Assembly: GCA_001692895.1 (NCBI GenBank)
Contig: KV748266.1
Coordinates: 186,001-250,000 of the forward strand
Length of the DNA stretch: 64,000 bases
Reading direction: 5' to 3'
Source: Cenococcum geophilum 1.58
Taxonomy: Eukaryota; Ascomycota; Dothideomycetes; Gloniales; Gloniaceae
In this document: piece by piece, positions 20,791 through 40,900 of the stretch
Layout: each line of letters opens with the position of its first letter
How positions within the stretch are numbered: position 1 is the first letter of the stretch
Program-made: the position numbers and the translations under genes
Notes under the pieces: model-generated
Database searches by the model: none
Told to the model about the DNA's origin: nothing
What the model saw: the letters and a program-made list of their open reading frames with translations, nothing else

Positions 20791-20859
20791 ATTATTTAAT
20801 ACGGTCCTAAATAAGGTTTATAAAGACTAATCCCATTAATATTAGGTATAAAACCCCTT

Positions 20860-21125
20860 AAGGAAGATATAAGAGGTAATATAGTATATACCCCTCTAGG
20901 TAGTATATCTATACTATATTAATGGGAGGAAAAATACTATTAGGTTATTACTCTAAGAGTCCTATAAAGGAGTATCCTAATTATTTATCCTACTTTATTT
21001 ACCCTTTATATTATTATTAATTGCTATTAAATATTATTACTTACCTATCCCTAGCTTTTTATTACTTTATATATATATCCGCGTTGCTAATAGTCTTCCT
21101 ACTTATAGCTAAATAACTCTCCCTA
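20860..21125. repeat. Dispersed repeat, inverted partner at about 33700-33975
   Basis: The stretch from ATAAAACCCCTTAAGGAAGAT to about CTTATAGCTAAATAACT matches the reverse complement of about 33700-33975 over some 265 bp, with mainly C/T and G/A differences and small length changes. The partner lies just downstream of a G-rich tract, so the family may be an LTR. Here it is isolated between an LTR and a gag fragment. Confidence 0.6.
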
Positions 21126-22253: not shown

Positions 22254-22346
22254 CGAGAATTCCATTAAATTTTCTAAGGAAAATTTCCAAATTACTGACT
22301 TATAGCCAGTAATTTGGTTCCTTGGGGAAATTTAACGGAATTCTCG
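22254..22346. repeat. 93-bp near-perfect palindrome (foldback or MITE-like)
   Basis: Left arm CGAGAATTCCATTAAATTTT... and right arm ...AAATTTAACGGAATTCTCG are inverted repeats of each other over about 42 bp, around a loop of a few bases (near ACTTATAGC). Arm mismatches are mostly C/T or G/A, plus a small indel. It sits exactly between the truncated Gypsy gag fragment and the 3' end region of the Helitron. It could be a tiny foldback element, or a structure linked to the Helitron terminus. Confidence 0.85.
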
Positions 22347-22356
22347 CGCTTACGGC

Positions 22357-22368
22357 GGGCTTTTGCCC
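22357..22368. other. Small hairpin, candidate Helitron 3' end structure
   Basis: GGGCTTTTGCCC is a perfect 4-bp stem with a TTTT loop. Helitrons typically carry a short GC-rich hairpin just inside their 3' end, and the Rep-helicase relic on the minus strand has its 3' end on this side. I could not identify a convincing CTRR terminus next to it. Confidence 0.35.
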
Positions 22369-22374
22369 TTCTAA

Positions 22375-22435
22375 ACTTAGTCTGCCCTACTACTACCCTA
22401 CTACTACCCTACTACCACCACTGCTGCCATACTAT
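22375..22435. repeat. Microsatellite-like CCCTACTAC repeats
   Basis: Several copies of CTACTACC(C)T are followed by ACCACCACTGCTGCC. It lies between the stop-codon region of the Helitron helicase relic and its presumed 3' end. Confidence 0.7.
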
Positions 22436-24012
22436 CCCCCCGCGTCTTAGCCCGTAACGGCTAGTAAAACCTTTAGATATATAATATTAGCAGTTATACT
22501 ATCCCTATCCTGCGGTAGTAATAGCGAGGGCCTATATATATCCGTTATTCTTAATAGTGTAATATATAGCTGCCTATGCGTAAAGACTAGTATACGTAAA
22601 TTAACCCTAATAAAGTTAAAAGACTGCCCTTATGACTTATTTACGGTTATAGCAAAGTATAGCCGGATTAGAAACTACCTTCTACTAATAATAAACGGCA
22701 GTTCCTCCTCTATAAAGGTAAGCTTAATATAAGGGATTAGCCGCAGCTACTTATAAAAGCTACCGCTAAGTATCCGAGCTTTAATATAGCGGCGGCTTAG
22801 GCGCGTAGTAACTATATAGGTGTCGTTATAGAGCCCTTTCTTAGGGTAGAGGTTCCATAAAAGGATTACGGGCGCGCCTACCTTTAGGGAAAGCTTTAAC
22901 GGTAGGCTGCTAGGGTTAAATATCTGTAAGAGCTCTACTAGTAGCAGTTCTATATAATTTTCTTCTCTATTTTACTCTATAGAGTCTATAAAATAAAAGG
23001 TGCTTAGGGAGCCGTAGAGCTATATAAGGATAGCCTCATTAATCTTAGCTATAGTGTTATTATAAATAGTTAGGATAGCGCGATTATGGAAGGTATTTAG
23101 GTTATAGTATACCCGCGTAAGTAGATATAGAGGGTATATATACCCGTAAAAGGATTCCTAGGACTAAAACTAGGCTATACTAGGTAGAATACTAACCCTA
23201 TTAGCTAGGGATATATTATAGGATAAGCTTCGCACCTAAGCGGCAAACTACTAACTTATCTCGCCCTAGCAGATATATATATTTAACCGTAGGAAGAGGA
23301 TACGGAAGGTAGGCTAGAGGAATAACCGCTATAGGCAAATACCTATAATAGCTGCGTGGTTCCCCTATAGGACAATAGGTAGTATTTAAGTAAAGTTACC
23401 ACCTAAGATAGTAGGGAGTTTGCTAAAGGTAGAGTTATTAAAATAGATGTTAGTAAGTATATAGTATATAGCTTTAAAGTAGTAGCGGTAATATATTAGC
23501 ACCTTATCCTAAATAAATAGAGAGGTATAGCGTAGAAGCTTAGCTAGATATAAGTTTTTAGAGATATTATAAGTAGACTTTTTATATAGATTAATAGGTA
23601 TCTAAAAATAGGAGTAGGCGGTACGGCTACTAGGTAGTAAAAGGGCTATAATACTAGAATAATCTTACTATATAAGTAGTAGTAGTGGTAAAGATAGTAA
23701 TAGAGAAACGTTTTACTAGTGCCTATAGGGCCCTAAAGGAAGAAGCGGGCCGTTTACGGATGTGTATCTATAGCGGCAATAATAGTATTAAAGCACGCTA
23801 CCTAATCCGCATTTAGCTGCTAGTATAGGTTAGTAAACTACCGTTCTTCCTTTATAGGGTTATATTATTATAGCTTAGCTATAAGAAGTGGGTTACTTCC
23901 CTTTATAATAATACCCTACTAATACTAGAACTAGGGCAGGCTATAATCTATAAGCGTTTTTTTAGTAATTAGTAAGTATCTAATAGATAAGGTATAGGCC
24001 GTAATTAAAATA

Positions 24013-24139
24013 TGTTAGGTGACGAAGTCACCTCACCTATATATATTGTTCTGTACAGCCGTGTCTAGCATTAAGCCAGTCACTTGCTTACCTTTTATAG
24101 GTTTGTGTAGCTGAGTGGTGCGGAGCTTATCACCTTACA
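24013..24139. mobile_element. 127-bp solo LTR or mini-LTR element with 5-bp TSD
   Basis: It begins TGTTAGGTGA and ends TCACCTTACA, inverted ends matching at 9 of 10 bases and bounded by TG...CA. It is flanked on both sides by AAATA (24008-24012 and 24140-24144). It contains a small hairpin, AGGTGAC-GAA-GTCACCT, at 24017-24033. It keeps many CpA/TpG dinucleotides, unlike the surrounding Helitron, so it looks little touched by RIP and probably young. It lacks coding capacity. A short LTR of a small-LTR retrotransposon, left solo, is most likely; a small non-autonomous element with 5-bp duplications is an alternative. Confidence 0.8.
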
Positions 24140-24832
24140 AAATAGGCGTTATTATTATCAGGAACTATAGGAGGAGTATTAAGTTAGCGGGCTAGAAAGT
24201 AAGGCAGATTATTATAGATAGAGTGTTTAAAGCAGTCCTATAAAACAACTAGCTCCGTAATAAGGCTGTAAAGTAAAGCAGTTATAAATAAGAAGCGTAG
24301 CTAGGGGCTAATAGTATAAACGGCGGCCTCTATTAAGTAATTAATCCACTTATAATTATTCTTTAGTAGGCCTAGGGCTATATAGGCGGCCTAAAAGGTT
24401 AGATAAACTATACTAGCAATAGTACGGAGGTCCTTAAAGAAGGTAGGGCTAGGGATAAACGTTAGTAGTAGCTGTAAGTAGAGCCTCTCGCCTATAACGG
24501 GACTGTAGTAATATATACGGCCTATTATAGTACCTTACTAGCATAGACGCCACTCCCGTTACTTTATATAAAAGATATAGTACTTAGGGAAGTCTTAATA
24601 TAGGCAGTTACGGCTATCCTTATACTTGGCGTTATACTTAAAAAAGGCCATTAAGGTAGAGTAAGAGAGCTTAAGGCGCTGCTAAATCTCCTTAGCGGAC
24701 TAATTAGGCTAAAAGTATATAGGCTACTTACCTAGAAGGTACACCGTAAGCTAGATTATAGGGGGGGACTTATTATAAATAGGAAACTTAAATAGCCGCT
24801 AGATAGCCTTAGAGGGGCCAATATAACGGCCC

Positions 24833-25192
24833 TATTACGGGACACCCCCGTAACACCTTACACACATCTACCTGTTTTCACCGACTTAGCAATTAGAGAC
24901 CAACCGTAAAATGGTAATCTAACGGCAATCTAGCGGCAATCTACGGCATTCTGCTATATTCTGCCAAGTTCTACTAAATTTTACCAAGTTCTGCTAGGAC
25001 TATAACCTGAACCCTATTTTACCCTATGCATATATTAACTAAGCAACTAAGTTAACGATATATGCCCTTTCTTCCTAATCTCCTACCTTCTCTCCTTACG
25101 TAACGTCTTAACCTTATTATATAGTTTATATATATAGCTTAATAATATCTACTTCGTTATATATTATTACCACTTATACTTACTCCATAACA
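24833..25192 (+). repeat. 5' LTR of the 24833-30781 Gypsy element
   Basis: 360 bp, starting TATTACGG (TG changed to TA) and ending CCATAACA, which is the inverted form of the start seen in the 3' copy. It carries the triplet TCTAACGGCAATCTAGCGGC at 24937-24960. Confidence 0.93.
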
Positions 25193-28100
25193 CTACGTTA
25201 TATTAACCACTTACACTACTACCTAAAATAGAAAATGTATCTAAAGCCCCCGTAACAGCCGCTAATATTATATCCATCCTTTAAGAATAAATAGTAAGCA
25301 TATAAAAGTCCTTTATAGAGGCCCTTAAACAATAATAAGTTACCCTAACTTAATAATAAGCTAAATAAGAAGTACGGCATTAGAAAACAATAGAAGCCCT
25401 TTAAGAAGAAGTCTATACCCTTAAGATGCCTACGCCAAAACCCTAAGACCGAACACTATCTTTAGAGATAAACACGCGAAACGCGAGTCCCAAACCTATA
25501 GCAGCTATTTACCCTAAACTAACTACCGCACTATAACAATCTAAGCGGTTACTTAACCCTCTAGTATTTACTAGTAAATAATAAGAGCTCTAATTATTCC
25601 TAAGCTAGCTAAAAAATAAGCTAACTGGTAACGCTAACTGTTACCTAATTAAAGCTAACTAACTCTGTTACGCCCTAAGTTAACTAGGAGGAGAGGTAGC
25701 TAACCTTATTAAACCTCTTTAGCTAACCTTAGTATAAAGCCTAGTTATACTTCTTAAAGCCTTATACGGTAACCTAAACCGCTAAGCTATTACCTAAAGA
25801 AAGATAAACTATATAGCTTAAGGAACAAAAAGTTTCGTAATATACTTCTTTAAATTTAACCATTATATAAGGGAAATAGGCTAGAATAACTCCGCACTAA
25901 TTAATAGCCTTATTAAATCTCTAAGCCCTAAACTAAAAACCTCCCTAATAGGCGTAGACCTACCGGGAGCCCTTAACGCCTATGTAAACGTTATTAACAA
26001 ACGGTATAATGATATACTACGCCTAACACCAAAACACACCCCTTAATACAATATAATAGCCCTATAAACGTCTACTAAGTCGTCTTAGCCTAAGCACCCT
26101 AGCGCTATAGATATTAACACTAGAACCCTAGAGTATGCCCTACTAGGGTTCCCTAAATAAGAAAGATATATTAAGCTAGGCCTCTGCTTTAAGTACAGAA
26201 GTAAGGACTATATCTTAAAATATTATCTTATCCCCTTACCTACGCCCTAAAATAATTTACGAACAGCTAACACCAGTAGCCGTTTACCATATTAATCTTC
26301 TAGTTACTATCTCCAATCTCTACCTAGTTCTAGCCCTATATCTAGCAAGCACTATTTATAAGGACGAAGCTACAGCTGACGTCCTATAAGAACCCTACCC
26401 TAATTGCCTCTAAAAGGAAGGTCCTAGAGCTAAGTCACTCTTCGGGACGGCTCTACTATAGGATTTTATTAAACGCATTTAATGTTATAAACTCTAACTC
26501 TTAGGACCATAGCATAACTATTAACTACCGTTTTTGGTAGAATAGTTAATAGGCTAACGCTTAAATCCTAATTAATACAAGAGCTAGCGGCATAGGATTT
26601 ATTAATAAAATCTTTATATAAGATAAAAGTTTTACCCTAATCCCCCTTAACCGGCATATTAACGTATTTAGATTTAATGGTAAACGTACCGTCTTAGGCC
26701 GTATTACCTACGTAGTATTCCTAAGACTCTAATACCTAAACTATAAAGAATTAATTAAACTTTTTGTTACTACCCTAGGTTACTTAGTAATCCTTAAACA
26801 ACCCTAGATAAAGCTATATAAGGTAACTATTAATTAGGACAACCTTAAGCTTTTATTTACCGCCTCCCGTTATAAGCAGAAGTGCCTTATAACTCGCTAC
26901 TTAGACCTAAAACTAAAATCTAAAAAACCTACTAAGATCCACCAGTCTAAAATTTCCACGACTATTTACCCTACGCCTAAAGAATCTACTAGATTCCACT
27001 AACCTAGGAATTCTACTAAATTCTACTAACGTAAGATTTCTACCAATATCCATTAAGGATCTAAAAATTCCACTAAACCCTATAAACAGACCCTAAGTAC
27101 TATACCGCCCTAAGCTAAGCAGAAGCTTAAGCTTAATATACAAAAATACTAGAAGGACTAGTATTCTACTATAAAAAGGATTTTTAAAGAACCCGAACCT
27201 AAATCTAATACTAACTCCGTACCTAATACTAAACCTAAACCTAAGTAAGAAACTACGAGCAATCCGAGCGAGCTCGGCACCCTAAATATCCGCATAATTA
27301 GAGCTACCCTATTAGCGCAACTTGCTAAGAAACCTAAGTATATAATCTTCGCTGTTACAATAGCCAATATTAAGAAGGCCTTAGCACTAAGGAAGCATAC
27401 TAACCTTACCACGAAGGTACTAATAGAGTATCATTATTGCCTAAATGCGTTCTTACGAAAGAAAGCTAATAAGCTACTAGAATACCAACTATACGACCAT
27501 AAGATTATACTCGAAGAAGGAAAGTAGCCTAGATTTAGACCTTTATATAGGATATCCTAAAATAAACTCTAAGTACTATAAAAGTATTTAGACGAGAACC
27601 TAAGTAAAGGATTTATTAGAGCAAGCTTATCGCCTATAGCCGTACTAGTGATCTTTATTAAGAAACCTAGCGGCGGTTTACGCTTCTATATAGACTACTA
27701 AGCTCTTAACGCCGTTACTATTAAGAACTAATACCTGATCCCGTTAATACAAAAGACGCTAAACCGACTAAGTAAGGCTCATTACTACACGAAGCTTAAT
27801 ATTATCTCTACATTTAACCGTCTCCGTATTACAAAAGGGGATAAATAGCTTACTACATTTCGTACCTAATATAAACTATTTAAATACTTAGTAACACCCT
27901 TCGGCCTCACAAACGCTCTAAGCTCGTTTTAACATTATATAAATAATACCCTACGCCCCTACCTAGACATCTTCTATACTACTTATATTAACAACATCCT
28001 AATATATAGTAATAACCTAACCGAATATCGGAAATACGTTAACCTTATCCTATAAGCCCTATACGGAGCTAGTTTATAATTAGATATAGATAAATACAAG

Positions 28101-30421
28101 TTCTATAAAACGGAAGTTCTATACCTTAGACTCCTTATTTCTATAAACGGTATATAAATGGACCTAAAGAAAGTTAAAGTAATTATAAACTAGTAAGAAC
28201 CCGAAAATATTAAGGACGTAAGAGCCTTTATAGGATTTGCTAATTTCTACTAACGGTTTATTAACAACTTCTCCACCTTAGTTTTACCCCTTATAGCTCT
28301 AACCTAAAAGAATAAAGCCTTTATCTTTAATAAGGAATATAAGAAGGCCTTTACCTATTTAAAGGTTATATTTACTACTGCGCCTATACTCTAATACTTT
28401 AACCTAAACTAAATAAGTATTATAGAAGCCAACTTATCTAACTACGTCACTAAAGGCATCCTATCTCAATATAACAAGGATAGAGTATTATACCCCATAG
28501 TATACTTTTTAAAATAACTAAGCCTAGCTAAATATAACTACGAGATCTATAATAAGGAATTATTAGCTATTATTAGATGCTTTAAATAATAGCAACCTAA
28601 ACTAGAAGGCGCCAGATTTCTAATTAAGGTCCTTAGCGACTATAAAAACCTACAGTACTTTATAACCACGAAACAGCTAAGTTATTATTAGGCCCACTAG
28701 TTAGAATATCTATCTCATTTCTAATTCTTAATTATATACTACCTAGGTGTCTAAGGTTAGAAGCCTAATACCCTAACCTAACGCTTACAAGACGCGCCAG
28801 TCCTAGAAGAAGCGCGCTCTTACTAAAATTAGACCCTACTTCGCCCTAAACTATTTAACCCTCCCACTAAAGATCTTATAGTACTCGTCCTTAAAATAAC
28901 TAATTAATCGATTAAGTAGATTATAGTCAACGAATACCCAAATAACGAGTTTATTTAAGAGACGCTTAAGCTAATACAAGATAGCACTAGACGCTCTAAA
29001 AAGATTTCTCTAAGTAAATATAAAGCCTGTAGAAACCGCTTGTATTACTAGAACTGTCTAATTATCCCTAATTACAATAAGCTTAAGCTTAAGCTCCTTA
29101 AACACATATACGACCTACTAGTAGCCAGCCACCTAGGCTAAGGAAAAACCCTAGAACTGCTCTAACGAGAATACTATTAGCCGAATATGCATAACATAAC
29201 ATAAAGGTACGTCTTTAGCTGCTATATCTGCCGACGAGCTAAAGCTTTACATAAGACGTATAACGGCCTTCTAAAGCCACTACCTGCTCCGGACCGAAGA
29301 TAGAAGGACATCTTAATTAACTTCATTATTAATCTCCCCGTAAGTAAAGGCTGTATAAATATTATAGTAGTTGTAGACCGACTGTCTAAAATAAGACACT
29401 TAATCGCCTGCCCCGATATATTAATACCTACCGTCGCCCGGCTGTTCCTAGATTACATATAAAAACTCTACGGACTTCTTAAAACGATTATCTCTAATAA
29501 AGGTAGCTAGTTTATCTCTATATTTTAGAAAGAACTAACTACCCAACTCCGCATTAAAGCACTATTATCTATAGCATACTACTTGGAAACGGATGGTTAA
29601 ATGGAATATGTAAATGCTATAATAGAGCAGTATATTCGGATATACACGTCGTACTTATAAGATAACTAGATTAACTGGCTTACATTCGCCGAGTTTACGG
29701 CAAATAATTCCGTTTTAGAAACTATAAAGGTCTCCCCGTTTCTGGCTAACTACGGCTAGCATCTATAAATAGGTTTTAAACCCTTTAGTAACGTTCCTTA
29801 CCCCGCTTATTAAGCCTTATAAGTTATAGAAGTAAACAAATTTATAGAAAAGATAGAGGAACTATAACAGTTCCTTACTAACGAAATAATATAGGCCTAA
29901 TCTGTCTATAAGGCCGCAGTATATAAGAAACAAACCCTAGCACTAGCCTACTAAATTAGTAACTTCGTCTGGCTAAATATAAGAAATCTAAACACGAAAC
30001 AACCTGTTAAGAAACTTAATTAGAAGAACGCTGGCCCTTATAAGGTTAAGAAGGTCGTCTCCTCTTACTCTTACTAATTAAAGCTCCCTAATACGGTTAA
30101 AATCCACCCCGTATTTTATACGTCAGTCCTTTACCCTACTACCCCTATATTAGACGCCCTACCTAGACAGATATAGGACCCTCCCCCACCAGTTAAAGTG
30201 GATGGTGAGAACGAGTACTTTATTAAAAGAATTAATAATATTAAGTATAATAAACGGAAACGCCAATATATATATCTTATAAAATAGAGAGGCTTTACTA
30301 AGTCCTTATAGGAACCTGTTAACTCTATAAGACTTATATAAGCTATAGAAGACTTTTATAAACTCCACCTAGAACTACCACAGCCCCACCTCGCAAAAGC
30401 TCGAGTTTAAAGGGGGGGTAC

Positions 30422-30781
30422 TGTTATGGGACACCCCCGTAATACCTTGCACACGTCCACCTATTTCCACCGACTTAGCAATTAAAGACTAACCGCAAAA
30501 TGGCAATCTAACGGCAATTTAGCGGCAATTTACGGCATTCTGCTATATTCTGCTAAGTTCTACCAAATTCTGCTAAGTTCTACCAGGACTACAACCTAAA
30601 CCCTATTCTGCCCTATATACGTATTAACTAAGCAACCAAGTTAACAATATATGCCCTTTCTTCCCGATCTCCTACCTTCTCTCCTTACGCAACGTCTTAA
30701 CCTTATTACACAGTTTATGTATATAGCTTAATAATATCTACTTCGTCATATATTATCACCACTTATACTTACTCCGTAATA
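30422..30781 (+). repeat. 3' LTR of the 24833-30781 Gypsy element
   Basis: 360 bp, starting TGTTATGG and ending CCGTAATA, followed directly by the GGCCC target duplication. It aligns without gaps to the 5' LTR by eye. Confidence 0.93.
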
Positions 30782-30786
30782 GGCCC

Positions 30787-33010
30787 TATAAATACTAGGT
30801 TACCTCATCGCTATTAATAAGCCGTAAAGTAATATAGTTATTCCCCTTATATATATACTTATAGATATACTTAATGGACTATATAGAGGCGTAAACCTTA
30901 ATATTTATATAGGTATAATACTTTATAGATAGATATAGGGAGTACGGAATAATCTAGTAGTTATTTATTTTAAATATACCTCCTTTTAGTAAGTAGATAG
31001 ACCATAACTATAAATTATTATAATAGCGGTATTCTAAATAGCCGTCCTTATATATAATAGTAGTAGGGTTAAAAGGCTTAGGATACCGCTTTAAGTAGGT
31101 TAGCGGAAGGCCTGGCTTTAGCGTAATTATATAGGGAGCTTATTGATTCTAGGAGCCACAAGGGCCGTAAACTATTATTAACTTTATAATCTTAGTAAGA
31201 TAACTAGTAGGATTGTCCTTAGGCTACGGAAGCTCTATAGATATAAAATGGTTAATAATAGCTAGGTTTAGTAGCTTATCGCGGTTATATAGATATAGGA
31301 AGAGTAGTAGGTATAGATAGGGCAGGCCCTATTTTTAGTACTTAATAGTTTAGATAAAGCCAAGGTGCTAGCTAAAGATCTACTTCCGTTTTAGGTTGTA
31401 AAAGAGGTAGGTAAGCTTTATATAGAAGACACGTATAACTAAATCAGGCCTATCTATAGCAGTTTAGCTAGGTAATAGCTTACGGGTAATCTTATTCTAT
31501 TTAGGGTTAGTAGTAAATATAAGAAATATACTTAGACGGCCGTATTTATAGATAATAGCTATTAAATCCTAATAGCACTATCCGATAAAGCAATCTTCGC
31601 TAAGGAAACTAGATAAAAGGACTGCGCGGCGGCCTAATAATTTAGGGTTTAGATTATAGCGAGTAAGAGTATCTATAATACTATTATACAGCTCTACGCA
31701 AAGGGTTATTTAGTTAGAGCGGATCTAGGTAAGCTTATTTTAATTATATAGCGCCTATACATCTATAATATACTGCTAAAATAGCTAGTAGTAGGTAAAA
31801 GGGACCAACTTAGAGTTAATATGGACGTGTAGGCAGAACTAAAAGTAGGCCTACTAGGTTAAACAGTCTTATTAATAGGCTTAATTAGAGTTACGTAGCT
31901 AGAGACCCTAGTGCTAGCCAGTATTACTATAAGAAAAGTGTAGTATATAGTAGAGCGGCATATATATGGCATGCGTTAAGTTAATATAGCAGTATCGCGG
32001 CTGCTTATTAGGCGTATAACGCTCCGTAAGTATAATATCGCGAAAGTAGGTGTTACTATACTTATTTGGTATAATAACGGCCACCTTATTACTTATTAGG
32101 AGGTTCTTACAGTAGTAATTAGTACTAGCCTTTAGGATAAGCCGCATTTATAGGTTTAAGATAATCTATAATAGGGTCGTTATAGGCTAAGCCTAAAGCT
32201 GTTCCCTTATAGTTTAATAAAGGGCAATAAAAGGGTTCCGTATGTTAAATAGTATAGTAGTAAAGCACTATAAAATAGCTATATTTAACTAGGTACTAGA
32301 ATAGGCCTATAGCTAGATATCTATAGTATAACTAGGGTTATAAAAGTATAGCTAGGCATACTACGGAGTAATATTAGTAGGAGGCTCTAGCGGGCCCTAT
32401 AAATAGTAAAGCTTACTATATATCTAGAAGCAATTTAGGCTACTATAGGCTATACTACGGTTAGTAATGGTATAGTTTACGGACGTAAAAGCTAGTATTA
32501 TATTATATAAGCGAAGCTGCTCCCTAAACTGCCTAGTAGAAGTACTATAGGACTCTAAAAGATTATATAGATATTTTAGCGGAGGCTAAAATAGAGGGAG
32601 GGTTATATCGCCGTGCTTATAGTAGGCTTTAAAGCGTAGATTGCTAGGCTATAATATACTAATACGTTTATTAATCCAATATAGGGCGGTATAAAAGTTA
32701 TAGGCAACGTCTATAGAACTAATATTTAGCTGCTTTATAATAGGGCGGACGGTAGTAATAGGGCTATAATCTAGCTACTTAGTAATAGGGCGGACCGTAT
32801 TAGGTTATAGCTAGATAGATATAGGCGGTTGCAGCTAGATTAATATAGTTGGCCGCGGCCGCGGCTAAATTAATATAGGTAATTATAGCTAGATTAATAC
32901 GGGCGGTATAAGGGGAGAAGCAGCAGCGAAAGTAGCGGCGGAAGTAGTAGTAGCTATAGTTTAGGGTATAGGCCGCGAAAGGTCCGCTAAAGGTCTTTAT
33001 TAGGACCACC
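30787..33010 (-). mobile_element. Helitron, replication-initiator (Rep) half
   Basis: Read on the minus strand this is the N-terminal half of the Rep-helicase whose helicase part lies at 22350-24827. Near 31300-31340 it reads GLPYLYLLLFL, the HUH motif of Helitron Rep (G-L-P-H-x-H-h-h) with both His codons turned into Tyr codons, as RIP of CAC/CAT would do. Next come PQPKDNPTSY-like and VYGPCG segments in the family order. Near 30800-30900 a VHLP-like block leads into the helicase half. The Helitron-like N-terminal domain is more weakly traceable from about 32650 to 31380. The start near 33009 is followed by a low-complexity Ala/Tyr/Ile-Asn-Leu stretch and is doubtful. Rep would nick and rejoin DNA during rolling-circle movement. 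Confidence 0.82.
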
Positions 33011-33461
33011 TACTTCTTTTCTCATATATATATAGAGTTAGAGAAGTAATAAGGTAAAAAAAGGATAAAAAAGATTAACCTTATAAGAGTTACACGTTTT
33101 ATACGGAGCTCTATAACGGTTTATTATAAACTTAGTAGAAGAGTAATACTAGTTATAACTAGTATAAAATATACAATTAGAAGGCATTTAGGTGGTAGGT
33201 AGGGAGTAGTAACTTAGGTAATAGTAGTATAGAAGATATTTAAGTAGTAAGGGATAGGAAAGAGGTTGTAAGAGCTTTTATAGAGCTTTATATAGAGCTT
33301 TAGTAGAGCTCCGTGTAGAGCTCCGTATACTCCTTATTAAAAATTTTCCGTAGAGCTCTAAGCCTTAAGATATATAGACGAAAGTAGTGCCATTTAAAAG
33401 CGCTTTATAAGGTTTATAAAGCTATATAAATAGAAATCGTATATACCTACTATTAGGGGGG
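33011..33461. other. Helitron 5' flank and outlying 12-bp-repeat arm
   Basis: No gene is visible. From about 33268 to 33345 there are GAGCTTTATAGAGCTTTAGTAGAGCT-type units belonging to the foldback arrays described below. A G-rich tract (TTAGGGGGG) ends at 33461, just before a TGTATTACAAG start. The tract looks like a polypurine tract preceding an LTR. Confidence 0.45.
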
Positions 33462-33971
33462 TGTATTACAAGTATAAGTATTAGTTAAATTAATGGGGTA
33501 GTATATAAGGGCATATCCCCCTATTAGGTAACTAGAACTAATTTAAACCAATTATATCCTTTACTAAGACCCAAACTTAGTATAATATAGATAACCTATA
33601 GCTAATCTAATAGGAAGCTATATAGTTAAGTTTTACTATAAGTTTAGGGTATACCTAGTCTATATATAATAATCTCTATTAATAGGCCCTTAGTAATTTA
33701 GCTATAGGTAAAAGGACTATAGGCAATATAGATATATATATAGAGTAGAATAAAGCTAAGGGTAGGTAGGTAATAATATTTAATAGCAATTTATAATAAT
33801 ATAGAAGTATAGTATAAAGGGTAAATAGGGTAAGATGGTAGTTAGAATACTCCTTTATAGGAGTCTTAAAGTAGAAACCTAGTAGTATTTTTCCTCTTAT
33901 TAATATAGTATAAGTATACTACCTAGAGGGGTATATACTATATTACCTTTTATATCTCCCTTAAAGGTTTT
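33462..33971 (+). repeat. Probable solo LTR (about 510 bp), inverted relative at 20860-21125
   Basis: It starts TGTATTACAAGTATAAG directly after a G-rich tract. Its right part (33700-33971) matches the reverse complement of 20860-21125. Similarity ends sharply at GGTTTTATA (33971), where the foldback array resumes. Start context and repeat behaviour fit an LTR, possibly of a Ty1/Copia element, given the Copia piece at 34410-34775. Confidence 0.45.
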
Positions 33972-34410
33972 ATATAGAGCTTTAGTAGAGCTCTATATAG
34001 AATCTTAGTAGATCTCTATATAGAATCTTAGTAGAGCTTTATATAGGGTTTTAAGGGCTTTATAAAGGGTTTCTAGTAAAGCTTTCTATAGAGCTTTCTA
34101 TAGAGCTTTTTAGCAAAGCCTTTAGTAGAGCGTCTAGCTTAGTTTTAGTCTATACTATATTTAAGTAAGAGTTTATTAATCTATAATAATTCTAGCTTAA
34201 AGATAATCTCTATAATTAATTTCCCTAACTATTAAAGCTTTATTAGATACTCTATATAGGGCTTTATATAAAGTTTTACCGAAGGCTTTATTAAAAAGCT
34301 TTACTAAAGGCTATCTATGAGGCTCCCTTAGAGCCCTACGCGAAGCTCTACTAAGACTCTATATAGAGCTCTACTAAAGCTCTATATAAGGCTCTATTAA
34401 AAGGATAAGT
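33972..34410. repeat. Foldback element with 12-bp-unit arms, copy 1 (decayed)
   Basis: The left arm (33972-34130) consists of GAGCTTTAGTAGAGCTCTATATAG-type units in AGAGCTT orientation. A unique spacer (about 34137-34255) follows, and then the right arm (34256-34410), made of the same unit in reverse complement (GAAGCTCTACTAAGACTCT). The spacer matches 36127-36250 of copy 2 almost base for base, including CTATAATTAATTTCCCTA. This copy is strongly RIP-mutated, with CAGAG turned to TAGAG throughout. Confidence 0.75.
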
Positions 34411-34775
34411 AGTTATTATTTTATTATTTTATAAGGCTAAATATATAGGAGAAAAATAGGCTTCTAAGTAAGCCGTCTAGCTTAAATACCTTTTAGTAGA
34501 GCTATTTAAGTTAGAAAAAGACCAAATAGTAACTATAATCTATAGAAATAACTAAGGCATTATATTATTAACTAAAAATATCTAATCCTACTTTAAGATA
34601 AAGTATATTATAATTTAATATTACTATATATAGAAAAGATCGGCTAAAGAAAAAGTAGACTTATAGTATATTTTAATATAAAAATAGATAGTAACCGGCC
34701 TTACTAAAGCCTTACTAAAAGGTAAGTTTATTACCTATATAAATATACTAAGGTTAAAAACGTATAAGTACTAAT
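34411..34775 (+). mobile_element. Ty1/Copia pol fragment (RNase H end)
   Basis: A plus-strand stretch resembles the very end of Copia polyproteins: the N-x-x-x-I-x-L-x-x-N segment, the R-x-K-H-I-x-x-x-Y-H region in decayed form, and the final G-L-T-K-A-L motif near 34700-34730 (read as TGLTKALLKGKF). It is a short broken fragment without LTRs attached. It is wedged between the two foldback copies. Confidence 0.65.
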
Positions 34776-35298
34776 ATTAAATATTTCTATATTTAGCTAC
34801 TATATTTTATAGGTCTACCCTACTTAATATAAAGTAGCTCTACTTAATATATAGCTATATTACTAAAAATTAATTAATATAACATTTTTTAATAAAAAAT
34901 AAACTATCTACTATAATATTAAATAAACTAATAACTATATTAACTTATAAGTTTTTAACTTTAAAAAGATATACTTTAAAAAGCTATAAGTTCTAGAGTT
35001 TTAATAGGTTTAACTATAAGTATAAAGCCTATAATAGGTTAGATAGGTATAGGTAATACTACTTTACTCCTTACTTATTTATAAAATAGGTCTATAAAAA
35101 CGTATATTTAAATATTTAAATATCTTAAAGAGATTACTTATAAATAATTAATCCCTACTATATAATATCTACTTTTTATAAATAGAATTTACTTCCTACT
35201 AATTAAGGCTTAATAGTTTTATATGGCCTAATACTAATTTAGTATAATATTATTTTATATAGGAACTAAATATTAATAAAAATCAATCTAATCTAATC
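34776..35298. other. A+T-rich stretch without recognisable content
   Basis: Dense TA-rich sequence with no frame or repeat that I can name. It may be further decayed Copia or target sequence between the foldback copies. Confidence 0.4.
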
Positions 35299-37938
35299 TA
35301 TAGTAGATATAGAGCTCTATATAAAGCTGTAGTAGAGCCCTATATAAAGCTTTAGTAGAACCCTATATAGAGCCTTAGTAGAGTCCCGTATAGAACTCTA
35401 TATAGAGCCTTAGTAGAGTTCTATATAGAGCTTCGGTATAGCTTTATATAGAGTCTTTATATAAAGCTTTAAGGGAGCTTTATAGAGAGCCTTAAGCAGA
35501 GCTTTATATAGAGCTTTTAGTAGAGCCTTTAGTAAAGTTCCGTACGGAGCTTCGGTAGAGCTTTATACAGAGCTCCATATATAGCTTTAGTAACGCTCCG
35601 TGTAGAGCCTTGGTAGAGCTCTACGCAGAGCTTTAAGGGAACTTTGCAGAGAGCCTTAAGCAGAGCTTTGTGCAGAGCCTCAAGCAGAGATTTAAGTAAA
35701 GCTCCGTGCAGAGCTTCGAGCAGAGATTCGAGCAGAGGATTCGAGCAGAGCTTCGAGCAGAGCTTCGAGCAGAGCTTCGAGCAGAGCTTCGAGCAGAGCT
35801 TCGAGCAGAGCTTCGAGCAGAGCTTCGAGCAGAGCTTCGAGCAGAGCCTCAAGTAGAGCCTCAAGCAGAGATTCGAGCAAAGCTCCGTGCAGAGCTTCGA
35901 GCAGAGCCTTAAGCAGAGCTTCGTGCAGAGCTTCGAGCAGAGCCCTTGGTAGAGCTCTATGCGGAGCTTCGGTAGAGCTCTACGCGGAGCTTCGGTAGAG
36001 CTCTACGCGGAGCTTCGGTAGAGCTCTATGCGGAGTCTTGGCAGAGCTTCGTAGAGAGCTCTGAGGGAGCTTCGCAGAGAGCCTCTGGCAGAGCCTTTGG
36101 CAGAGCTCCGTACAGAGCCTTTGGTTAAGCCTCTGACTCAGTTTTAGTACGTGCTATATTTAACCGAGAGTCTACTAATCTATAATAACTCTAGCTTAAA
36201 GCTAGACTCTATAATTAATTTCCCTAGCTACTAAAGCTTTACTAGGGGCTCTGCACGGGGCTTTTACGGGCTCTGCATGAGCTCTGTACGGGCTGTCTAC
36301 GGAGCTCTACCAAAGGCTCTGCATAAAGCTCTGCCAGAGGCCGGGGTGCAGCTCGGGGGGGTTACGGAAAAGTTGAAAGGGGTCACCGATGGGGGTCGGC
36401 GAAAGTTGAACGGGGTCACCGATGGAGCACCGGAAAAAGGTCGGTGGGGTCACACTTTTACCCATACAGAACGTGCATCGGTAGCCACAATTTGCCTTTA
36501 GCGACCGTATGCATTAAATATGCGGTGCATATGCTAAGTATATGCATATATACAACTATAAGATATATACGTCAAATGGTTTATTAGTGGGTGCATATGC
36601 TAAGCATATGCAGGGATAATATAGCGCACCCTACCTTATGTAAAATTAGTGTACGTATAGACTTTGCATATGCCTAGCATATGCAATACATACGCATAGT
36701 CTATACTATAATAACCTAGCTTACTTATTTACTGCTATGGTTAATGGGGGGTATATACTAAGTATATATACCTTAAGCATTATATAATTTTTTATTATTA
36801 TATATACTAAGTAAATACTATAGTATAGCCTACCTTATATAAAATATAAATATAATACTTTAAAAGGTAGTATATGAAGGAGTAAAATCTCTTTAAAATA
36901 AATATAAAATTGGTAGAGTATATACAGAGTATATACTCTGCATATGCTGAGACCATACAACGCGTATACAGGTATATTTTAACAACTTAGGTTATTTATT
37001 TTATTTTAGTATATGTCCTGCATATACCCCGCATATGCCTCGCATATAACTTATTTTATATATATAAAATACTTTAAATTCTATAAAATAAAAAAAAATG
37101 GTCTGTATATGCACTGCATATGCATAAAGCTTAGTGGGGTCAGAAGTTGAGCGGGGTCAGAAAGGTTGTGACCCCGTTGAACTTTGTGACCCCGCCGAGT
37201 TTTTCCGTGACCCCCCCGAGCTGTAAGCCCGCTAGAGGCTCTCTGCGAAGCTCCCTTAGAGCTCTCTGCGAAGCTCTGCCAAGACTCCGCATAGAGCTCT
37301 ACCGAAGCTCCGCATGGAGCTCTACCAAGGGCTCTGCTCGAAGCTCTGCACGAAGCTCTGCTTGAGGCTCTGCATAAGGCTCTGCACGAAGCTCTGCTTG
37401 AGGCTCTGCTCGAAGCTCTGCACGGAGCTTTGCTCGAATCTCTGCTTGAGGCTCTGCTTGAGGCTCTGCTCGAAGCTCTGCTCGAAGCTCTGCTCGAAGC
37501 TCTGCTCGAAGCTCTGCTCGAAGCTCTGCTCGAAGCTCTGCTCGAATCTCTGCTCGAATCTCTGCTCGAAGCTCTGCACGGAGCTTTACTCAAATCTCTG
37601 CTTGAGGCTCTGCTCGAAGCTCTGCTCGAAGCTCTGCTCGAGGCTCTGCTCGAAGCTCTGCTCGAAGCTCTGCTTAAGGCTCTCTGTGAAGCTCCCTTGA
37701 AGCTTTATACAAACTCTGCTAAGACTCCGCATAGAGCTCTACTAAAGGCTCTACTTAAAGCTCTGCAAAAGCTCTGCTTAAGGCTCTCTGCGAAGCTCCT
37801 TTAAAGCTCCGTATAGAGCTCTACTAAGGGTCTATTATAGAGCTCTACCAAAGCTCTATATGGAGCTCTACTAAAGCTATACACGGAGCTCCGTATAGAG
37901 CTTTATTAAAGCTCCACTAAAGCTTTACATCTACTATA
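35299..37938. mobile_element. Foldback element with 12-bp-unit inverted arms, copy 2
   Basis: The left arm (35299-36125) is an array of GAGCAGAGCTTC. The right arm (36251-36348 and 37224-37938) is an array of the reverse complement, GAAGCTCTGCTC. Between the arms lies a spacer of about 125 bp (36126-36250) with the hairpin CTAGCTT-A-AAGCTAG. The outer ends are also inverted: TATAGTAGATATAGAGCT on the left against TATAGTAGATGTAAAGCT read inward from the right. The central units are near-perfect (35740-35845 and 37460-37680) and keep CpA. Units near both outer ends are RIP-mutated. An 875-bp TIR element has inserted in the right arm. The architecture resembles foldback transposons whose arms are simple arrays. 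No protein gene is present, so it would need helper functions. Confidence 0.75.
36349..37223. mobile_element. 875-bp non-autonomous TIR element with GCATATGC palindromes
   Basis: Both ends begin CAGCTCGGGGGGGT and stay inverted for 23 bp with one C/T mismatch (..ACGGAAAA). Subterminal GGGGTCAC-type motifs repeat on both sides (36375-36450; 37130-37210, inverted). The core is A+T-rich and carries eight copies of the palindrome GCATATGC at 36527, 36593, 36604, 36666, 36677, 36940, 37031 and 37116, plus decayed versions. There is no coding frame. The flanks (CCGGGGTG left, TAAGCCCG right) do not show a clear target duplication. The superfamily is unknown. The palindromes look like transposase or host-factor binding sites, which is inference. 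Confidence 0.75.
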
Positions 37939-40900
37939 ATAATTATCTACTATAATACCTTTCCCCCCTCTTTTCTTTACGTAATAAGGTCTTTAAGTAT
38001 TACCTAATAGGGGTTAATTTTATTATATAGATATATACTTTTTTATATACCTATTTAGTAACTAATAAAAAGTAAGGTAGTTATTATCTATTACCTACCT
38101 AGCCTATTATAGGCCTTAGGGGTAATAGTAATTAGTTCTATATAAGAAACTAAAAAGTACTTTATTATTTAAAATTAGAATCTAAAATATATATATAGAT
38201 AATAGTACTTAAAAATAATAATTAAAAGACTATACTCTTTTAGAATATAGAAGAAATTATTAAAGTTTATAAATTAAGAGTAAAGTTAGAAAAGCTATAG
38301 TATAATTCTAATAAAAGGCATTTTAGATAAAATAAGTACCTAGTATATACTCTTTAGTAAATATAAAATATAGCCCTATTAAGAGACTATTATTTAAGAA
38401 AAATAAGTAGATAATAACCTATAAGAGATTAGTTAAATATTAATATTAATAATTTATTAATTTGAATAGATATTACCTAAATACTTTTAAAGATTTAATA
38501 AGGCCTATAGTTTACTTAGTTTATCTATCTATATTATATTTATATAAGGATTAAATAAAAGCTCTCTTCCCTATATAATTAGTTTAAGTAATAGTTATTA
38601 ACTAATACTATTGGTTTAAGTAGGAGTATTAAAAGTTAATTATTTAATAGTATAAGAAGGCTAGTAATTAGGTAGTAAGTCTATTTAGGAAAATAATAAG
38701 GCCTTATTATAATAAATATTATAACTATTATAACCCTACTGCTTACGCTAAATATATAGCTATATCTATTATGTACAGTTATAAGATCTTCCATAATAAG
38801 GATATAAGGTACCTTTTTAAGCCCTAGGATTTATATAATCCTCGCGAGATTTAACTAGATTATCATTTCTACTAAGAAGATACCCTATAATTGTTAAAGA
38901 ATTAAACTCTAAGCTCTAGCCTCCCCAACTACATAATTTCCGAATTCCCTAGCGTTTTTTACTAGAAAAATACTAAACGCCACCCCTTTAAAAGGAGTGG
39001 CCCTTATAAACAAGCGGATCTTCCCTAATATTAATAAAATTTTATTAAAAATTCTAAAGAAAAACACCAGAGGCTTAGATAAAATATTAAAATAATAAAC
39101 TCTCTATAAAATAATAAAAAAACCTACTAATTTAATATTTTTATTAACCATTAGCTAATTAAATGCATTAAATAGTCTAAATAAGTAACTTAACGTAACT
39201 TTTAAGACATCTAGCTATTTAAGTAGAAGAGTCGGTATATTAAGCTAGGGTTCTTCTTAGTTAAAGTAGAGAAAAAAGGGTTAAATTTCTATAAAGCCGT
39301 TAAAATTAAGTAGTTATATTTTAAATTTTTAAGATCTTACCTCCTGTTTAATGTGTTTTCCGAAAATTAAGCATAAGTTTAACCTTTCTAGTAGTAAGGT
39401 TATAGATTTAAATATGCCGAACTTTAATATATAGAACTTTATTAAATCTAAGAAAATAGGCAAAAGCTATCGCATATATAAGGCTTATTATAATTCACTA
39501 ATAAACACCTCCCTAAATCCGTCCTCCTTGGCCTGTAGGAAGATGGGATAACTAAGATGTATATTTAAGATTTACGTTATATTCGTAAAGCTCTTAAAGC
39601 TTTAACGCAGTAATTACTCTTACGCCTTCTTGCGTTTCTCCTACGCGAGTCTATAAAATAGCGTTAGTTATAGTAAATAGTAAAAAAATAATAGTATTAC
39701 CAAGAAAGAAAATATACTTTTCGTCTATATAGACTTCTTATATATCTTGCCATAATATCTAAAAGTGTTAGGTTTCCTGTCTATTCTCTATTACTTTTCT
39801 TAGAAAATTTATTAATTCTAAGACAAACCTTATGAGCATAGAAATAGGAGACTACTGCACGTATTTTTTGCGTATGTGACTAGGTTCTATTCTTACTTTC
39901 TTATAGTAATTAAGAAGATAAGCTAGGTTTGGCCTTTTTATAGATAGACTGAATCCATAGGCATATTAATGGTAGAACGTCTTTATTTAGCTTTTTAACG
40001 AACTTTTTAAACTTTAGGGCTTCCTTTTTTATAAATCTAATATACTTTTTAATTTGCCTAGAATTACCTTATTAGATATAAGTGTTTTTAACTAAATTCT
40101 TAGAATATATAGGAAATATACCCTATATAACCTGATAAAGTTATAGGTNCTAATGCACCCTNTANAGCCTTATATANAGTTTTAAANAACTTATTAATTC
40201 TAACNGAATTNTTAGNTTCTGCTACTAAAATCTCTTATTACTTATTAAGTTCCTTATTAATTTCGGCATCTTCTATAGCTTTCTATATAGGATTTAAGGG
40301 AGTTTTAGTATCTAATAACAAAAGAAAAGAGTTAATTTAAGAGAAATAAGACATTTTCCAAAAAGAATAGAAGTAATTCTTAAATTTTCTAAGGCTAGTA
40401 GTGTGTAAAAAACAATTAGAAGGTTTTTAGTAAAAATAAGGTGCGGGGTAAGTCCTTTATTAAAGAAATTTAAAAAATAATTAGCGTTTATAGAAAAAAC
40501 CGCTAATATAGCTATTTTTGCTATATAAATCTAAAATTAAATATATAAAATTTTAAGATATTTTAATAAAATCTCGAAAAGCTCTATTATAATAATTGTT
40601 TTTATAGTATAGCTTTATTAAAAAGAAAAAAGTAGTAGCTTAATTAGGGTATAGGAGGGACCTTAGGTTTAACAAGAAATAAAGCTTAAAATACTATAGT
40701 TGCTATTTAAAATAAATAGCTTCTTAGGTTTACTAAGGAATTTATTTAATCGGGAAGAAGAATATATAAAGAGATCGCAATTTATAAAAAAATGTTAGTA
40801 TAACTATAAAGAGAGTATATCCTTAATAGAAAAATATAATTAATTTATTTAGGCAAGATAAAGGAGAAATAGTATAGTTTCTTAAAGAATCTAATATAAA

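Follow-up and report, generated by a model that had tools for sequence, protein, structure and literature searches.

Two long arrays of a short unit face each other across a spacer in the window, a stretch of 64,000 nucleotides from Cenococcum geophilum 1.58, and the question is whether they form a local satellite or one copy of a mobile element. The arrangement resembles that of the FB elements of Drosophila melanogaster, whose opposed arms of short tandem repeats also surround a middle domain, although unit sizes, sequence and host differ; an earlier note on this DNA had proposed an FB-like mobile family. We find that a dispersed foldback family is real. With a probability of about 0.75, we read the feature as a foldback DNA transposon of Mutator (MULE) type, non-autonomous and aged by RIP, whose middle is flipped by crossover between the arms. 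The window contains the following parts:

33969..34402, plus strand: second, short-armed copy, sharing one host repeat with the main copy; its left arm spans about 33969-34110, its spacer about 34111-34245 and its right arm about 34246-34402
35020..35150, plus strand: outer flank, inverted partner of about 38009-38125 (self-alignment of the window)
35165..35298, plus strand: remnant of the left outer terminal repeat, its tip (about 42 bp) missing (aligned with relatives L026 and L032; L081 compared by eye)
35299..36118, plus strand: left arm, 820 bp, array of 11/12-bp units of the TAGAGCTTTATA / CAGAGCTTCGAG type (arrays, TRF, inverted-arm match, arm comparison)
36119..36244, plus strand: spacer (middle domain) of about 126 bp with hairpin TCTAGCTTAAAGCTAGA (genome matches, same-site comparison)
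36245..36341, minus strand: inner part of the right arm, opposed units (inverted-arm match; end set by the duplication of the nested element)
36342..37231, no strand assigned: nested hAT-like non-autonomous element of a separate repeat family, 890 bp, tips CGGGGTGCAGCT / AGCTGTAAGCCCG (genome copies, 8-bp duplication)
37232..37938, minus strand: outer part of the right arm, array of GCTCTGCTCGAA-type units (arrays, TRF, inverted-arm match)
37939..38003, minus strand: remnant of the right outer terminal repeat, truncated (aligned with L026; L081 compared by eye)
38009..38125, minus strand: outer flank, inverted partner of about 35020-35150 (self-alignment of the window)

The opposed arrays around a hairpin-bearing spacer that had been described here are present, with a unit of 11/12 bp seen by TRF (periods 12, 23 and 36) and in ungapped inverted-arm matches (263 nt at 89% and 232 nt at 93% complementarity), and the outermost bases, TATAGTAGAT...ATCTACTATA, are inverted in the window sequence as claimed. 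Both arms are long and opposed, but the right one, 804 bp with the nested element excluded, is not one continuous array, as the 890-bp element at 36342-37231 splits it. Further out, the flanks form an inverted pair of about 100-130 bp (35023-35121 against 38118-38017, 80.6%); alignment recognised neither tips nor a target duplication of the window copy beyond about 35165 on the left and 38003 on the right. On the minus strand, 37081-37593 holds a 170-aa ORF of SSRA-type repeats, a result of the 12-bp array.

The hAT-like element inserted into the right arm of the window copy between 8-bp target duplications at 36334-36341 (left) and 37232-37239 (right), CCAGAGGC/CTAGAGGC, which differ by one transition. 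Its own family has further copies elsewhere in the genome, and a relative, L053, is flanked by the perfect 8-bp duplication CTGGAAGC. Whether array arms are preferred targets is uncertain: they may or may not be. The nested MITE is rich in GCATATGC palindromes and has GGGGTCAC repeats close to the tips. In L010, L011 and L032, array units adjoin sequences related to the ends of this MITE.

A search of the 177.2-Mb host assembly (162 contigs) with the window spacer returned 40 scored matches of 87 candidates, 86-100% identical and including the window itself; 37 stretches were fetched for the remaining 39 places, one of them an extra stretch beside a copy on contig C3. Together with the window and five later loci, these yielded 57 spacer matches of at least 70 bp, a set in which one C3 copy is counted twice (L009 and L045 overlap) and from which L073, with its split spacer, is omitted. 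A side was scored as passing when forward units outnumbered reverse units on the left, or the opposite on the right. The left side passed in 53 and the right in 52, and opposed arrays on both sides, as the earlier note had expected of further copies, accompany 49 of the 57. The eight exceptions comprise five in clustered loci (L027, L033, L036, L040, L042) and three without counted left units (L023, L030, L041). Within 200 bp of the 57 matches, the left side holds 412 forward and 92 reverse units, the right 108 and 485.

These copies thus have a middle domain between long inverted arms that are themselves built of tandem repeats, and they occur at unrelated sites; because their contexts differ, we regard the family as dispersed. 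The proposal of a mobile, FB-like family is borne out by copies in several unrelated contexts and by complete relatives with terminal repeats and 9-bp duplications, described below; the outcome that would have spoken against it, a spacer unique in the genome or further copies lacking opposed arrays, did not occur. For one class of loci (L028, L031, L034 and L044) we joined the flanks of L034 and found no uninterrupted site; the left flank is a repeat of its own with a fixed end.

Segmental duplication has nevertheless shaped this locus. The flanks around 33578-39887 recur at several loci, the left one (34650-35290) at 93-97% in C45, C3, C9, C5 and C27 and at 83% in C38 and C10, the right one (37950-38560) at 93-96% in the closest copies, with 94-96% in C3, C45, C95, C10 and C5, some of them partial. 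Since the flanks of the window copy are repeated too, transposition of its own does not account for all of the spread of this copy, which multiplied as a passenger of a larger host repeat. A local satellite spread by segmental duplication alone would predict just such repeated flanks, and the window copy did spread in this way, but it is refuted as the whole explanation by copies whose flanks are unrelated and by copies that lie within elements bearing target duplications, and we consider it scarcely credible. The second, older copy that had been noted next to the main one is real, at about 33969-34402; its spacer, however, is 83% identical over 118 bp, not nearly base for base.

The stretches examined for an empty site of the host repeat, L073 (C38), L074 (C1), L077 (C5) and L078 (C7), all bear arrays. 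The host repeat has an inverted repeat of about 280 bp at 82% (window 20847-21118 and 33692-33974). An 11.3-kb stretch of the window, 22254-33577, is absent from the C3 copy, where 22253 abuts 33578; within it lies a direct repeat pair, 24832-25190 and 30421-30779 (88.9%), related to a gypsy LTR region (L056).

The ends of the family are visible in complete relatives. These begin with the tip GGGGTTWATAYAAAATCCACCT, continue through an outer repeat of about 210-270 bp and 11/12-bp arrays to the spacer, and are then mirrored; TTATAGTAGACG units lie outermost in the arrays and AGAGC-type units inside. L026 and L032 have the outer repeat, outside the arrays, in common, and a search with it led to seven fetched tip pairs. 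Genome-wide, the tip pattern with one mismatch allowed gave 52 matches, against 0 for the reversed control pattern. The tip pairs and their target duplications are:

L026: perfect 9-bp duplication TAATCTTTA; arrays and spacer
L080: perfect 9-bp duplication TTTATATTA; arrays on one side, partial spacer, large foreign interior
L081: perfect 9-bp duplication TTATTAATT; arrays and spacer
L082: perfect 9-bp duplication TTTATTATA; arrays without spacer
C28 pair (L088/L089): perfect 9-bp duplication TTTCTTTAA; known here from its tips alone
C20 pair (L086/L087): 8 of 9 bp, T-rich sequence; known here from its tips alone
L083: 6 of 9 bp, the three differences all transitions; arrays and shortened spacer
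L079 and L084: no duplication; no arrays
L085: right tip not recognised; no arrays

Perfect 9-bp duplications thus flank five of the ten tip pairs examined, a set that leaves the C30 and C57 pairs outside, and four of the five known to carry arrays. As L079, L084 and L085 bear tips and are array-free, arrays are not obligatory. Target duplications had been anticipated directly outside TATAGTAGAT; they exist as perfect 9-bp duplications in relatives, but TATAGTAGAT is an array unit there, and the tips lie some 210-270 bp further out. In L080 (C77:124000-127720), the foldback middle holds foreign DNA whose ends are inverted and of CAGTCTTGCGGTCGATACC type; judged by eye, this may be a hAT element.

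These ends make a Mutator-type, non-autonomous family the most likely assignment. The perfect 9-bp duplications fall within the 8-11 bp of Mutator (MULE) elements, and L026, L081, L082 and L083 have long terminal inverted repeats, a combination that fits Mutator (PMC6446971). The MULE transposase domain PF10551 has 79 matches in the genome; none of the matches listed lies inside a tip pair, and the longest tip pair, L079 (5.8 kb), holds no ORF of at least 100 aa, so that a coding partner was not found. As no transposase-bearing element was recognised, the assignment to a superfamily is based on the length of the duplications and on the terminal repeats. One PF10551 match, C51:1087274-1087552, has an array-bearing locus to one side (spacer C51:1084580) and a copy of the right flank to the other (C51:1089797). 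Membership of the whole family in hAT does not fit, as 8-bp duplications with CAGTG-type tips occur only in a subset (L039, L041, L075 and L076), whereas the array-bearing GGGG-tipped elements have 9-bp duplications.

LTR retrotransposons have duplications of 4-6 bp and TG..CA ends. In place of direct LTRs with such ends and a short duplication, the elements here have inverted GGGG tips and a 9-bp duplication. A rearranged retrotransposon in the form of two head-to-head LTRs could still be read into the outer terminal repeats, which carry TATATAAA, look LTR-like and by eye resemble a promoter followed by R-U5 in L026 and L032, the outermost 12-mers being shared with gypsy LTRs; 9-bp duplications and inverted GGGG tips do not fit LTR ends, and this origin appears very unlikely.

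The orientation of the spacer relative to its flanks varies among copies at one and the same insertion site, with three of eight copies in the window orientation and five reversed. The reference was the flanks, for C27 and C38 the left flank only:

Window orientation, same insertion site: C91, C3 (L009), C38 (L073)
Reversed, same insertion site: C27 (L011), C10 (L012), C9 (L013), C5 (L014), C45 (L015)

A related group, for which the right flank served as the reference, has L021 in the window orientation and L016, L017, L019, L024, L077 and L078 reversed. The left-flank tree joins L012 (reversed) and L073 (not reversed) as sisters with 100% support, while support is low (17-52) for the nodes that group the closest copies; if the L012/L073 pair is right, at least two orientation changes would be needed in the first group. 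Inside the spacer of L073 (C38) sits an element of about 435 bp, which has CGTATTCCACC as its inverted tips and is flanked by a TA duplication.

Comparison of the arms places the breakpoints of these flips inside the arrays. In reversed copies, the innermost left stretch scores lower against the same side of the window than against the other side (L015 38/134, L014 39/122, L013 41/92, L012 54/99), whereas an outer stretch matches the same side in two of them (L015 144/61, L014 144/79); in L012 and L013 the right end matches the same side and the outermost left stretch is near even. In the same-orientation pair of L009 and the window, the right inner stretch scores 110 on its own side and 40 on the other, with the left near even (139 and 135). 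Inner arms therefore move with the spacer and outer arms mostly do not, which points to arm-arm crossovers that flip the middle. Against L015, which has the same orientation, right-arm stretches near the spacer of L014 and L013 also score higher on the other side (for example 58 vs 144), so that more than one exchange, or conversion, would have taken place. At this single site the left arm measures between 607 and 1155 bp, the upper value coming from L015, where some 220-300 bp of the arm are free of units, and the right arm between 461 and 898 bp. The old short-armed copy has a single orientation in all six of its loci; the contrast of 0/6 flipped short-armed with 5/8 flipped long-armed copies (0.028) is only suggestive, related copies not being independent.

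The core of arrays and spacer also occurs in other carriers. It lies between CAGTGTGTCC-type, hAT-type tips with 8-bp duplications in L039, L041 and L076, and the same tips enclose no core in L075:

L039: 8-bp duplication ACCTCAAG, one extra base between right tip and duplication
L041: 8-bp duplication GTATAAAT, hAT-type, core present
L076: 8-bp duplication GTTGCGCG, hAT-type, core present
L075: 8-bp duplication GGTTCTTG, same tips, no core, a AAGCTTTGGTAGA unit at the junction

L043 has both hAT-type ends and no duplication by eye, and in L022 no right tip was seen. Joining the hAT-type ends of L041 revealed no uninterrupted copy, L075 having a different interior. In a third context, three filled sites (L029, L037 and L038) compare with 17 uninterrupted places in the genome. 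The 14 of these that were aligned have GACGGTRAGGGTAAGG across the site, with minor variation, and a case can be made for no more than 3-4 duplicated bases; the left flank aligns with the uninterrupted places over only about 70 bp, the filled copies differing further out. The two-unit 12-mer of the outer arms occurs in Ty3/gypsy LTRs as well (L056, L058), and the two-unit pattern with one mismatch allowed has 347 places in the genome, against 0 for a control.

Such carriers would suit a different reading, in which the array-spacer core, rather than being a transposon in its own right, is a hairpin-prone minisatellite that ectopic recombination or break repair, acting at short sequences resembling the unit, has copied into MULE-type, hAT-type and other elements. 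It would explain cores inside hAT-type elements with 8-bp duplications, the unit already at the junction of coreless L075, filled third-context sites with no clear long duplication, and the outer-arm 12-mer in gypsy LTRs. Against it, the core is present in full in L026 and L081, which bear tips and are flanked by perfect 9-bp duplications, and with only some 70 bp of left flank aligned in the third context a rearrangement could hide a duplication; we hold this reading to be possible, but tentatively so. A further thought, on balance doubtful, is that the core outlives its carriers: arrays and spacer would flip in place, renew their inner units amid RIP decay and cross between MULE-type, hAT-type and third superfamilies, making the array the selfish unit.

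Unit types are graded along the arms. Unmutated-looking CAGAGC units become rarer outward from the spacer, in same-site left arms from 43/65 within 200 bp to 0/8 at 800-1000 bp, and the substrate index of the window is 1.75-5.0 in inner arm stretches, 0.27 and 0.81 in the outer arms and 0.07 and 0.31 in the flanks. Flank RIP does not predict the share of outer units (Spearman 0.11, p 0.55) across 33 loci, a set from which L023, L030, L032 and L041 were dropped (no contiguous units) and L045 was left out as a duplicate, and we claim neither leakage of RIP nor protection from it as the cause. TAGAGC-type units are found in L081 too, and unit zonation accounts for the gradient at least as well. 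In Neurospora, RIP homology sensing responds to an 11/12-bp spacing, with other periodicities under other conditions (PMC4858203). The array unit has this same length, which might relate to the fate of arrays under RIP.

The long inverted arms could fold, and PMC6446971 links MULE terminal repeats to siRNA, as one would expect of a hairpin locus retained for a function such as a source of double-stranded RNA for silencing. The copies, however, show RIP-like decay and nested insertions, and we think retention for function very unlikely.

We therefore return to the Mutator-type foldback transposon, a known kind of element in a new family and host, set apart by their descriptions from Tm1, Tetris and Galileo. 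Tm1 Mutator/Foldback elements of root-knot nematodes (PMC3169594) likewise have composite terminal repeats of variable length, 9-bp duplications and MITE-like members; a motif of mostly 14 bp stands in 1-9 tandem units in their repeats, and the two ends differ in this. Some arms here exceed 1 kb; Tm1 has Phantom-like, transposase-coding members, of which we found none, and another host, and the likeness is one of description only. Tetris of Drosophila virilis (PMC4079207) is a non-autonomous foldback element with internal tandem repeats and 8-10 bp duplications, assigned to Mutator on that ground, as here, but its units measure about 220 bp instead of 12 bp. Galileo of Drosophila (PMC3573991, PMC3688188) shares long terminal repeats with tandem repeats, independent change of arm length and exchange between copies; it belongs to the P-element superfamily and has units of about 210 bp (PMC3573991). 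A search of titles and beginnings of abstracts in open-licence literature found no fungal foldback family with array-built arms, the sole foldback-ascomycete paper retrieved concerning hairpin small RNAs.

The mechanism we propose for the family runs as follows. A MULE transposase would act in trans at the tips, with the array units serving as extra binding sites or arising as passive by-products. Slippage and unequal exchange would lengthen and shorten the arms, and crossover between them would invert the middle. The window copy has lost its tips and multiplied as a passenger of the larger, heavily RIPped repeat, and a hAT-like element landed in its right arm.

Same-site copies with opposite orientations of the middle would record crossovers between inverted arrays of a short unit, so that the breakpoints of foldback arms can be read from sequence. 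The family thus gives natural evidence for arm-arm exchange and for a core common to several transposon types, and such a shared core bears on the origin of foldback arms.
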